A DNA stretch of 64,000 bases from Candidatus Nitrosocosmicus oleophilus (GTDB taxonomy: Archaea > Thermoproteota > Nitrososphaeria > Nitrososphaerales > Nitrososphaeraceae), in NCBI RefSeq assembly GCF_000802205.1, contig NZ_CP012850.1, forward strand, positions 1,054,001 to 1,118,000. Direction: 5' to 3'. Under the pieces are notes generated by a model that had not been told where the DNA came from, ran no database searches, and worked only from the letters and a program-made list of their open reading frames with translations. Of the stretch, positions 6,987-44,357 are shown in pieces. The stretch's first letter is position 1, and every line of letters begins with the position of its first letter. A program made the translations under genes and the position numbers.

Positions 6987-7026
6987 CGGGCCCGGTGGGT
7001 TTAGTAATAGATATATTACGAGTCTG
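6987..7026 (+). repeat. Tagged repeat element, family A, copy A1 (long form)
   Basis: The tag 'cgggcccggtggg' is followed by the family A tail 'tttagtaatagatatatta', ending in 'cgagtct'. The tail holds the palindrome gtaata-gata-tattac. Homology with copy A3 (11994) goes on for a further 200 bp or more, through the strong hairpin at 7122-7165, so these two are long forms of the family. The rest of the spacer 6867-7508 shows no gene. Confidence 0.85.
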
Positions 7027-38557: not shown

Positions 38558-38927
38558 CTATAACATAATCGACAAGAATCTGATGTTTGTGAAATTTTCA
38601 TTTAATTTTGTTATTTGGGATGGATGCTAGCTCGTCTGTGGCCGCCAAGCCCGAGAGATTTTATTCTCATCGAATAAGTAATGATCATCAATGTAATTCA
38701 GATCAACTTGAGTTTTAGTATATATTCATTAGTTATGGAGGAATATTATTTATTGATATTCTTCTCAAGACCCTGTTCCAAAAAGACGTTTATAGATCTC
38801 ATTTAATCAAAGGTAAACGGCTGTATTGTACGTAATAACCCGAGTTTTGTTGCCTTCATGTTAATTTATTCCATAGAAAGGAGCCTAGCATAATACATAA
38901 ACATAATCTTGTCAATACAACTTTATA
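38558..38927. other. Spacer after the IS
   Basis: No gene is seen. A short GC-richer stretch around 38625-38660 (gctcgtctgtggccgccaag) stands out but forms no clear structure and no tRNA. Confidence 0.35.
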
Positions 38928-39485
38928 ATGAATGATAAAATAAAGATACTTGGATTTGCGGGAAGCTTAAGAAAAGAATCCTTCAATAGAGCACTTTTAC
39001 GGAATGCAGATAAATTCGTTCCAGATAATGCACGTCTAGAAATTTTTGAACTTGATGGTATTCCGCCATTTAACCAAGATACTGAAAAGGAAATGCCTCA
39101 GAAGGTAAGAGAATTCAAATCCAAAATAAAGGATGCAGACGCAATTTTGATTAGTACTCCTGAATATAATTACTCTGTACCCGGGGTGTTAAAAAACGCA
39201 ATTGACTTCGCTTCTAGACCATATGGCGATAATCCCTTTGACGGTAAACCAGTTGCTATAATGAGTGCATCAATAGGAATGTTAGGAGGAGCAAGAGCAC
39301 AATATCATCTCCGACAAATATTCGTATTCCTTAACATGTATCCAATTAACAGGCCCGAGGTAATGGTAAACTTTGCTACAGACAAATTCGACTCCGAAGG
39401 CAGTCTATTGGATGAGACCTCACGGGAGCTGATAGGAGAGTTAATTCAAAACCTAGTGGATTGGGTTATGTTATTAAAAAAATAA
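38928..39485 (+). CDS. NADPH-dependent FMN reductase / quinone reductase family flavoprotein
   Basis: The 185-residue flavodoxin-fold protein has the FMN phosphate loop 'GFAGSLRKESFNRALLRNA', the conserved 'ISTPEYNYSVPGVLKNAIDF' and 'GKPVAIMSASIGMLGGARA'. It reduces FMN or quinones with NAD(P)H, likely in redox defence. Length is normal. A truncated close relative lies at 43892-44162, cut at the same 'GVLKN' position by the 1,053-bp block. Confidence 0.9.
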   Translation: MNDKIKILGFAGSLRKESFNRALLRNADKFVPDNARLEIFELDGIPPFNQDTEKEMPQKVREFKSKIKDADAILISTPEYNYSVPGVLKNAIDFASRPYGDNPFDGKPVAIMSASIGMLGGARAQYHLRQIFVFLNMYPINRPEVMVNFATDKFDSEGSLLDETSRELIGELIQNLVDWVMLLKK

Positions 39486-39751: not shown

Positions 39752-39793
39752 GTGGGCTTCGAATCCATGTGTTATATAGAATCTGTTAATTAA
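39752..39793 (+). repeat. Tagged repeat element, family B, copy B3 (degenerate)
   Basis: 'gtgggcttcgaatccatgtg' is followed by 'ttatatagaatctgttaat'. The tag is shortened and the palindrome is partly lost (ccatg-tgtta-tatag). It lies 101 bp before A4. Confidence 0.7.
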
Positions 39794-40282: not shown

Positions 40283-41689
40283 CTATTTACTATAAATATG
40301 ATCAAGGTATTTGTAGTCTATTCTAATAGCAGCTCCTTGGGTAATATATTGATTCATTATTTCTATATATTGCTTTATTGAATCATATAGATCGGTATCT
40401 TTATCTGCAAATATTAGCCTTCGCCTGTCATTTTGAGTCACCTCGTTTGAAAGATAAAATGAATCATGTAATTCTTCAATTCGTACTGCATAACTATCAT
40501 GCCACAATCCTACATCTCTCGAGTCCAACAAATTAGATGGTGTTGTACTGTCTATAGCGTTTTTAGCATTTTCAGGACTCACCCAAAATAATTGAACATG
40601 CATGTTCTCATGTCGTCTTACAAATTCCTTACAAACATAATATTTAGCTCGAATATCCGCGTGTAGGTTATCTATGTCCGGTATTAGATATCTATTACCA
40701 AAATTGACTGGAATCGGAATCCCTTTAAGTTGGCAGTCTTTTTTTATTCGTTCAAACATCATTTCCTGACTTGTCAGAAAGCCTCCTCTTTGACTTTCAA
40801 AAACACTGGGTAGGAACCGACTAACTCCAGAATATTTTGACCCACCATAGTAAAATAATGTTTTGTAAAAATTAATTTCATCTTCTGCTTCTAAATCGTA
40901 ACCATTGGCGGTAAAAATTTTAGAGAATTGTTTCTTGAATTGATTTACTTTCAATATGAAAAATTCTTGAACTGGAATCTTAGACTCCTTGAGTATATTA
41001 GGAAAATCTAGAGCTTCATCAATATTTAAAAAATTCTTGATACTGGCATTTCCAAAATTGAAGTCATTCATACTTCCATAAAATGAAAAAACTTCCTCGC
41101 CCTTTTTATCGTGTTTAATTGGATAGTTTCCGATCGAATGTATATGATCAAAAAGAACAAGTTTCCAATCTGGAAGTACTTTTCCAATCATTGCATCTCG
41201 AGCCCCTTTAGATAATAGAATTTGATTTGGAAGACATAAATTCAGTAATCTTTGTGCTATAATGGAGCTATAACCCCATGGTGCATATTTATTATGAGTT
41301 TTTTCAAAAAATGAAATACTTGTACCAAAACTGATTCCCATCTTCAATGCTATCTTTTCAGTATCATCATCTTTATTTTCAGTACTTAATTTATGATGTA
41401 GGAAAAGTGCCAAGTTAATAGCATCGTAATATTCATCAAATACCATAAACATACCGTCACCGGTAAAATTGTAGTACTTCTTAATTTCGGTATATTCTTT
41501 AACTCTTTCTGCAATCATTAAAAATTCTAATGTCCAGTCTTGTAGCGTAGTAATTTTTTTTACTTGAATGTCTTCTGGTATACTAGTCTTTGACGAGTCA
41601 ACTACGTCTGTATAGACAAAGAATTTTGCTTGATCGGATGACATACCAGTGTAAAACCATATCAAACATATATACGTATATTTGTTCAA
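40283..41689 (-). CDS. Class III nucleotidyl-cyclase-like protein with an unknown C-terminal domain
   Basis: Residues about 22-170 follow the class III cyclase pattern: 'KFFVYTDVVDSSK' (Asp28, metal), 'YYNFTGDGMFMVF' (Asp78, metal), 'ALKMGISFGTSISFF' and 'WGYSSIIAQRLLNLCLPNQI' (Arg147). The base-specifying Lys is Asn74, the matching Asp is Ala136 and the transition-state Asn is Ile143. It is therefore either not an ATP/GTP cyclase or inactive. The remaining 290 residues form a helical alpha/beta region of unknown family ('EAEDEINFYKTLFYYGGSKY', 'AKYYVCKEFVRRHENMHVQL'). Met1 agrees with the divergent promoter; Met16 is the alternative start. The 256-residue RHH-like gene is divergently transcribed. 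Confidence 0.7.
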   Translation of the reverse strand: MNKYTYICLIWFYTGMSSDQAKFFVYTDVVDSSKTSIPEDIQVKKITTLQDWTLEFLMIAERVKEYTEIKKYYNFTGDGMFMVFDEYYDAINLALFLHHKLSTENKDDDTEKIALKMGISFGTSISFFEKTHNKYAPWGYSSIIAQRLLNLCLPNQILLSKGARDAMIGKVLPDWKLVLFDHIHSIGNYPIKHDKKGEEVFSFYGSMNDFNFGNASIKNFLNIDEALDFPNILKESKIPVQEFFILKVNQFKKQFSKIFTANGYDLEAEDEINFYKTLFYYGGSKYSGVSRFLPSVFESQRGGFLTSQEMMFERIKKDCQLKGIPIPVNFGNRYLIPDIDNLHADIRAKYYVCKEFVRRHENMHVQLFWVSPENAKNAIDSTTPSNLLDSRDVGLWHDSYAVRIEELHDSFYLSNEVTQNDRRRLIFADKDTDLYDSIKQYIEIMNQYITQGAAIRIDYKYLDHIYSK

Positions 41690-41718
41690 TGGTAGCGTGA
41701 GTAAAAAGGAAAAAAAAT

Positions 41719-41738
41719 TAATATATATTTATATATTA
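41719..41738. promoter_or_regulatory. Palindromic double TATA region between cyclase-like and RHH-like genes
   Basis: The perfect inverted repeat taatatata-tt-tatatatta is shared by both divergent genes. It is about 25-35 bases from each start codon, as expected for two back-to-back TATA boxes with very short leaders. Confidence 0.5.
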
Positions 41739-41741
41739 CCA

Positions 41742-41761
41742 GTGTAATAATCTAATTACAC
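41742..41761. promoter_or_regulatory. Candidate operator abutting the RHH-like gene
   Basis: gtgtaat-aatcta-attacac is a perfect 7-bp inverted repeat ending one base before the ATG at 41762. Ribbon-helix-helix proteins bind such short palindromes and often control their own genes. This assignment is inference. Confidence 0.4.
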
Positions 41762-42532
41762 ATGGGAAGGGCGTTTAATAGTAGCGTAGTTACAATAAGA
41801 GTACCGATAAAAAAAGAGATAGACAAACTTAAAAAAAGCGAGGTATCTGTAGGAACATTTGTAAACGATCTTTTGCATTCATACTTAATAAAAGAAACTA
41901 ACTCCGATCTAATATATCCATATAAATTTTCGTTGATGGACGATACAATGACATTAGGCTCGATCCCCGATCGACCTTTATATGCTCAAATTTATAGGCA
42001 TAGACTAATTCACAATTTATCCATATACGATCTTGAAATAAAGAAGCACGTAATCCCTTCACCTGTATTGGAAAATAATAACCAGGTTGCTATTTCTCGA
42101 TATTCTTCAAAAAATATAACCATTACTGATAACACAAATAATTACCTACAGGTTTTATTTCCCAGAAGCTTTGATAAGAAATATGAAGAGTTAATAATAA
42201 TTTTCCCTAATCCCATTAGGAAAGGTGAAGAGTATGAATATTTCATTAACTATGAGAATGATTATACTGATTCTGTAAAATCCTCTTCTAAAGGAACATT
42301 ACATTATGTTCACAAGTTTCTTTCTAGAACAGATAAATATGTTATGTCATTCAAATATCCAAAGAGATGGCCTGACTTAGAAATAGACATTATAGGAGAA
42401 CAATATTTGATAAATAAAAACCCTATTCAGGAAACTCCCAAGTATAAGATACAATCTTATAGCGCACTTAGGATTTCCCCGAATTCTGAAATAGCTTTTG
42501 ATATTCAATCAATGGCTAATAACCGTGATTAA
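41762..42532 (+). CDS. Protein with N-terminal ribbon-helix-helix-like module and a beta-rich domain (256 aa)
   Basis: Residues about 8-46 ('VVTIRVPIKKEIDKLKKSEV' followed by 'SVGTFVNDLLHSYLIKE') have the strand-helix-helix pattern of CopG/Arc-type DNA-binding modules. Residues about 60-245 are strand-rich ('NYLQVLFPRSF', 'EELIIIFPNPIRKGEEYEYF', 'YVMSFKYPKRWPDLEID'), perhaps a beta-sandwich for ligand or protein binding. No family is recognised for that part. A similar N-terminal module heads the TPR protein at 49352. It is divergent from the cyclase-like gene over 72 bp, so the pair may be a sensor/response unit. Confidence 0.6.
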   Translation: MGRAFNSSVVTIRVPIKKEIDKLKKSEVSVGTFVNDLLHSYLIKETNSDLIYPYKFSLMDDTMTLGSIPDRPLYAQIYRHRLIHNLSIYDLEIKKHVIPSPVLENNNQVAISRYSSKNITITDNTNNYLQVLFPRSFDKKYEELIIIFPNPIRKGEEYEYFINYENDYTDSVKSSSKGTLHYVHKFLSRTDKYVMSFKYPKRWPDLEIDIIGEQYLINKNPIQETPKYKIQSYSALRISPNSEIAFDIQSMANNRD

Positions 42533-43700: not shown

Positions 43701-43877
43701 ATGAACGATTTACGTACGTTCAATCGTAATCCTCAAGGTTTGACAATAGGTCCAATGGAGACTTGTACCTAGCAGAATATGGTCCCAATTCTGAACACGA
43801 AATTAATCATCTCATAGTATAAGGTAAGATGGTTAGCCATATGTTGCGGGATTCAATGAGTACCTGGTATATCGATA
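43701..43877 (+). pseudogene. Fragment of a glucose/sorbosone dehydrogenase-like gene (copy 2)
   Basis: Identical to 15933-16109, with the same frameshift and stops. The decay therefore preceded the duplication. Confidence 0.6.
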
Positions 43878-43891
43878 GGAAATTGCGTTTT

Positions 43892-44162
43892 TTAACACCC
43901 CGGGTACAGAATAATTGTATTCGGGAGTGCTAATCAAAATAGCGTCTGCTCCTCTTATTTTAGATTTGAAATCCCTAACCTTCTCGGGCATGTCTTTCTC
44001 AGCGTCTTGGTTGAATGGTGGAATGCCATCAAGTTCAAAAATTTCTAGACTAGAATTATCTGGAATAAAACTAACTGCGTTGCGTAAAAGGGCTCTATTA
44101 AAAGAATCTTTCCTCAGGCTTCCAGCAAATCCCAGTATCCTTATTTTATCACTCACAATCAT
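43892..44162 (-). pseudogene. Flavin reductase gene truncated by the duplicated block
   Basis: The first 90 codons (MIVSDKIRILGFAGSLRKDS to 'PEYNYSVPGVLKN') closely match the intact protein at 38928, including the FMN loop. The frame then runs into the duplicated block and reads an unrelated tail until a stop at 43833. The second half of the flavodoxin fold is lost, so it should not bind flavin stably. Confidence 0.85.
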
Positions 44163-44357
44163 GTATTGATGAGACTATGTTTATGTTTTGTGCTCGGTGT
44201 CCTAAAATCAAGACTTGAGACTAATTATTGGTTGTGATACGAATTGTAAAGGTGCATCAAATTAGAACTTATCTCCGCATATTAAACATGGGTTTAAACT
44301 TTATTCATAATCGAATTGATTCAAAGGTGAAATTAGATTCTAATGCTCTAATTCAAA

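Follow-up and report, generated by a model that had tools for sequence, protein, structure and literature searches.

An altered base pocket in class III cyclase homologues of ammonia-oxidising archaea, and a divergent gene pair of Candidatus Nitrosocosmicus oleophilus

What does a class III cyclase-like protein do once the residues that specify its purine base have been replaced, and does it work as a unit with the gene that diverges from it? Both questions are raised by a locus within a 64,000-nucleotide stretch of the Candidatus Nitrosocosmicus oleophilus genome, referred to here as the window. The two genes and their predicted domains are the following (window positions).

40283 to 41689, minus strand: cyclase-like gene, an intact frame of 468 codons from a TTG (41689)
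41090 to 41626, minus strand: class III nucleotide-cyclase-homology domain (AF2 model, Foldseek, PDB profile matches, site census)
40286 to 40981, minus strand: degenerate phospholipase-D-like (PLD-like) domain, HKD-less, a putative sensor (AF2, Foldseek)
41762 to 42532, plus strand: partner gene, 256 aa, divergent (head-to-head) from the cyclase-like gene, an orphan by sequence
41762 to 41911, plus strand: ribbon-helix-helix-like (RHH-like) N-terminal segment of the partner, weak (local RHH profile score)
41996 to 42436, plus strand: beta-rich domain of the partner (HMM match to a domain fused to the cyclase clade)

Residues of the cyclase-like protein are numbered from the TTG at 41689, as in the original prediction; the ATG at 41644 (Met16; 453 aa), which adjoins a TATA-like stretch, is the more likely start. 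Pseudogene status of the gene was ruled out, its frame being intact and its active-site positions conserved. Neither the cyclase-like protein nor the partner had any match in Pfam, NCBIfam or PADLOC, the matches of the two in PHROGs were weak and uninformative, and no tRNA or Rfam RNA was found at the locus. Relatives of the cyclase-like gene, its closest orthologue among them, are present in Candidatus Nitrosocosmicus records.

Fold, active site and distribution of the cyclase-homology domain

The AF2 model of the cyclase-like protein has a mean pLDDT of 68, with higher values within the domains. Comparison of the model to the PDB with Foldseek gave class III cyclases for all of the first 50 matches (E 3.6e-9; 1ybu, TMt 0.84), Rv1900c being among the nearest folds, and class III cyclases (3mr7, Ma1120 and AC8) were also recovered by a sequence profile search of the PDB. 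As modelled, the N-terminal domain is a class III nucleotide-cyclase fold. Profile alignment to the solved cyclases and an alignment of 86 sequences both assign the metal sites to D28 and D78 and the Arg site to R147. The original prediction had named these three residues as kept, and they align to 3mr7, Ma1120 and AC8 in just that way. Its proposed substitutions also held in the two alignments, which place N74 at the Lys site, A136 at the Asp site and I143 at the Asn site, and they proved to be maintained across the clade. The transition-state Arg is present (R147) and the transition-state Asn is absent (I143). A check for Lys and Asp at the base-specifying sites found N74 and A136 there instead, so that the purine-specifying pair, Lys/Asp in adenylyl or Glu/variable in guanylyl cyclases, is missing.

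The 86 aligned rows comprise 67 members of the window clade and 19 other PF00211 proteins from the same genome and order. Among the aligned clade rows D28 is found in 63/63, D78 in 66/66 and R147 in 67/67. Lys never occurs at position 74 (0/66; N, S, L, F and A are seen), nor does Asn at position 143 (0/67; I, V, T or L instead), and position 136, mostly N or A, is Asp in only two of 67 rows. Three further residues, Q42, K45 and W138, are near-invariant in the 67 rows and specific to the clade. This near-invariance, together with that of D28, D78 and R147, indicates that the active-site positions are under constraint, and since the altered pocket is common to the clade across two families, it appears to be a shared and maintained feature. 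By these sequence comparisons the substitutions are beyond chance, clade-wide and not peculiar to the window gene. The 19 other proteins have Lys at position 74 (18 aligned) and Asn or Ser at position 143. A maximum-likelihood tree split the window clade from these ordinary Lys/Asn cyclase-like proteins with support of 100/100, although its long branches make the inner branching order unsure.

Strong matches to the clade were confined to two ammonia-oxidiser families in a 398-genome sample of the phylum, and no relatives were found in the viral contigs searched. Homologues of the cyclase-like protein were found in 24 of the 61 genomes searched (its own and relatives), the closest orthologue being a 47% match in genome G004. 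The window-type gene is sporadic (2 of 15 genus members); most genus members, the host included, encode a ~25% "core" paralogue, which in several of them adjoins ABC-2 transporter genes. In other relatives of the N-terminal domain the fusion partner is a KaiC-like ATPase or a beta-rich domain. PF00211 matches 11 of 12 full-length family members, the window protein being the sole exception. Of 61 genomes sampled from the order to which the window belongs, 46 have PF00211 domains. The host genome (C1) itself has 13 PF00211 matches in about 12 proteins, most of them with the canonical Lys. Several PF00211 proteins of the host carry Lys at the position expected for the catalytic Arg.

The window protein resembles class III cyclases (PF00211/COG2114; Rv1900c, Ma1120, CyaC) in its fold, the two metal Asp, the Arg and the positions of the GDG and W-G-x7-R motifs, but differs from them in its replaced Lys, Asp and Asn, its near-invariant Q42/K45/W138 and its fused PLD-like domain. 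The active adenylyl cyclase Ma1120 carries Ala in place of the Asn, and the Asp site of guanylyl cyclases is occupied by C, S, T, H, A or G (PMC4215837); Rv1900c has His at the Asn site and a bacterial set of nucleotide-cyclase-like proteins has Ile there (PMC4886424). Active enzymes that lack the Asn, or that have Ala where the Asp would be, are thus on record, and the substitutions imply neither loss of activity nor a pyrimidine product. The bacterial Ile-for-Asn proteins also keep the metal Asp and the Arg, but they retain the K/E pair where the archaeal window protein has N/A and its relatives have S/A or L/N (PMC4886424). The pyrimidine cyclases PycC of Pycsar likewise combine a class III fold with a non-standard base pocket, and have other residue sets (F100/R142/Q144 in EaPycC, F60/K104/F109 in AnPycC); Y26/N74/T76 of the window protein match neither pocket (PMC11224242), in a comparison made by offset from the metal Asp and restricted to EaPycC and AnPycC among the PycC clades.

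A phospholipase-D-like domain at the C-terminus

The C-terminal 290 residues had been put down as an unknown domain, a description that did not last: they consist of a linker followed by a predicted PLD-like domain of ~230 residues (AF2, Foldseek). Folded alone with 14 relatives in AF2, the C-terminal domain reached a pLDDT of 84 and a pTM of 0.77. Foldseek assigned it a phospholipase-D fold (best E 1.7e-3, probability 0.99), but the TM-scores were low (about 0.4 when normalised by query length); NucT, FAM83 DUF1669 and TrmBL2 were also among the matches. The catalytic HxK(x4)D (HKD) motif is absent from both the sequence and the alignment of the domain. Elsewhere the PLD-like domain is joined to a methyltransferase-like domain (L041, L098 and L097, the last of which ends at its contig edge), and in L098 and L100 it occurs without a cyclase domain.

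The predicted fold is shared with FAM83 DUF1669 and with the effector domain of TrmB/TrmBL2, which are non-catalytic and PLD-like; in contrast to these, the domain has no HKD, shows no detected sequence similarity to them and is fused to a cyclase-like, not a winged-helix, domain. TrmB regulators are the analogy behind a sensing role, and from this analogy we infer that the PLD-like domain may be a sensor.

The divergent partner and the intergenic gap

The N-terminus of the partner, compared to a local RHH profile, beats 1000 shuffles and ranks 4 of 975 real ORFs, a score that is not significant against ORFs; it has no Pfam or PDB match. An RHH-like head is therefore listed here as weakly supported. 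An RHH head was also considered for L100, the PLD-domain protein of genome G011, but was discarded: its score is in the range of shuffles, and it fails to align with the head of the window partner.

The remainder of the partner could be placed through the beta-rich domain that is fused to the same cyclase clade in other ammonia-oxidising archaea. An HMM of this domain matched the partner with 14.5 bits, and with 16.6 bits after the profile was widened, the best of 200 shuffles reaching 4.7; the match has an E of 1.6e-4 among 762 ORFs, and the next unrelated ORF scored 5.7 bits. The same beta-rich domain is joined to winged-HTH-like heads in L141 and L142, and an independent search with the partner gave a weak top match (E 0.016) inside one of those beta-domain proteins. 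The winged-HTH-like and beta-domain protein L142:1545-2372 matches Ribophorin_I (PF04597) above the Pfam cut-off (27.9 bits), which may hint at how the beta domain folds.

No homologues of the partner were found at E below 0.01 in 300 genomes of the class, nor in the phage and plasmid records searched, and the partner matched no CNBD, TIR or other Pfam family. No partner gene lies near the 47% orthologue. Since the partner is missing both from the 300 class genomes and from the locus of the orthologue, the two genes do not form a conserved unit: they co-occur nowhere else sampled, and the "two-component signalling unit" of the original prediction was rejected in that sense. The link between the two proteins survives at the level of modules, in the beta domain fused to the cyclase clade elsewhere and in a motif found at or near both starts, and fails as a conserved gene pair. 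This module-level evidence suggests that the partner is part of the same signalling kit as the cyclase clade; an interaction of the two proteins does not follow from it. Judged by its predicted domains, the partner is probably a DNA-binding regulator.

The gap between the genes holds the following elements.

41645 to 41654, plus strand: ACCAGTGTAA, first copy, adjoining the cyclase-like gene's probable ATG
41738 to 41747, plus strand: ACCAGTGTAA, copy 2, ahead of the partner
41742 to 41761, no strand assigned: palindrome GTGTAAT-n6-ATTACAC, a candidate operator, abutting the partner ATG

These are the only two copies of ACCAGTGTAA in the whole 64 kb window. The second copy, with an inverted ATTACAC half-site at the partner ATG, makes up the palindrome, which is unique in the genome. 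By chance, a 10-bp repeat of this kind would arise in the gap with P about 0.006 and a palindrome of this kind with P about 0.03, both motifs having been chosen after they were seen. AGTGTAA was not found ahead of the start of the partnerless 47% orthologue. It is a reasonable prediction that the gap motifs are a shared operator for the partner protein.

The locus lies among repeats. CCGGTGGGTWTAGTAATAGATATATTAC is found on the plus strand at window positions 6992, 10790, 11999, 39858, 46380 and 57236; its copies are concentrated in a region of about 115 kb that surrounds the window (about 1.00-1.118 Mb of genome C1), and several other genus members have small numbers of them. A second dispersed repeat, GTGGGCTTCGAATCCATGTG, is found on the plus strand at 1317, 11894, 39752, 42742, 48305 and 56353. 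Its exact copies at 39752 and 42742 bracket the gene pair, and ARAGORN found no tRNA at these two; a mobile element bounded by them was dropped as an explanation, GTGGGCTTCGAATCCATGTG being dispersed through the region. The segment is also flanked by 284-nt inverted copies (83%) of a flavin-reductase-like gene, at 38920-39203 and 43881-44164, the gene being full at 38928-39485 and truncated at 43833-44162.

Readings of the locus and their meaning

Our preferred reading, to which we give a probability of roughly 0.4, is that of a sensor-controlled nucleotide-binding or cyclising protein with a local, autoregulated regulator. The cyclase-like gene would encode a soluble signalling protein made up of the class III cyclase-homology domain and the degenerate PLD-like domain. 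The latter would sense a ligand, as in TrmB-type regulators, and the ligand state would switch the dimeric cyclase-like domain, which would bind a nucleoside triphosphate via two metals and the Arg; the bound NTP would most likely still be cyclised, with a base preference that is not readable from sequence. The partner, with its RHH-like head and a beta-rich tail for sensing or dimerisation, would act as a one-component regulator: bound to the GTGTAA half-sites repeated in the gap, it would repress transcription from its own promoter and tune the cyclase-like gene. The two genes are paired only locally, but the beta module of the partner comes from the parts kit of the same clade.

This reading is favoured by the fold, by the retained D28, D78 and R147, by the swapping of modules among architectures and by the published active cyclases that have no Asn; its regulator half is favoured by the beta-domain homology, by the half-sites at both starts and by the lack of such a motif ahead of the partnerless orthologue. 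Against cyclisation, Lys, Asp and Asn have all been lost together, whereas the cited active examples miss fewer, and the window gene has no Pfam match. The regulator half of the preferred reading is weakened by the absence of the partner beside the only close orthologue, by an RHH score not significant against real ORFs and by modest operator statistics.

A real possibility, live since the original prediction spoke of a "cyclase-derived sensor", is that the domain is a non-catalytic nucleotide switch, i.e. a metal-nucleotide-binding allosteric sensor or dimerisation module that relays its state to the fused domain and makes no second messenger. Such a switch would fit the loss of Lys, Asp and Asn throughout the clade and the position of the window gene under Pfam detection, and the beta tail, found also on DNA-binding heads, means that the cyclase-like domain could be another output or dimer module. 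Had catalysis been lost, however, some of the metal Asp and Arg would be expected to be gone; instead, the metal Asp pair and the Arg are kept in essentially every member, in two archaeal families.

It is unlikely that the protein is an ordinary adenylyl or guanylyl cyclase with a relaxed base pocket, making cAMP and/or cGMP. The activity of Ma1120 with Ala at the Asn site and the A, S, T, G, H or C of guanylyl cyclases at the Asp site (PMC4215837) speak for this, as does Rv1900c, one of the nearest folds, which is without the Asn (PMC4886424); but N, S or L at the Lys/Glu position is unlike the usual pattern of either enzyme, and about a dozen Lys-bearing class III proteins are already encoded in the host genome.

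Quite improbable, in our estimate, is a private class III clade of ammonia-oxidising archaea that makes a non-purine or unusual cyclic nucleotide and is wired via beta-rich and pseudo-PLD modules shared with transcription factors. Such a signalling branch is not described for archaea in the literature that we found; a non-standard nucleotide product, as originally predicted, is in itself no more than possible. Barely tenable is anti-phage defence of the Pycsar type, in which cCMP or cUMP would be produced and the partner would serve as receptor or effector: the altered base residues, the sporadic window-type gene (2/15 genus members) and the repeat-rich zone around the segment would suit it, but there is no PADLOC match, the partner matches no CNBD, TIR or other Pfam family, no CNBD-TM/TIR effector was found, the residues are unlike the two PycC pockets compared, in several genus members the core paralogue neighbours ABC-2 transporter genes, and no viral relatives were found.

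The larger result is the clade itself, a set of modular class III cyclase homologues whose base pocket has been replaced, found within the phylum only in ammonia oxidisers. A 2021 survey reported that very few predicted archaeal adenylate cyclases are class III (PMC8646023), and it is in this domain of life that class III proteins occur in 46 of 61 order genomes, together with an altered-pocket clade. The proteins are single polypeptides, and either outcome is directly testable with them. If they are catalytic, archaea that rank among the most abundant on Earth would have a cyclic-nucleotide signalling system with a product that a simple NTP assay could find; if they are not, they would show clearly how a class III fold has become a nucleotide switch.
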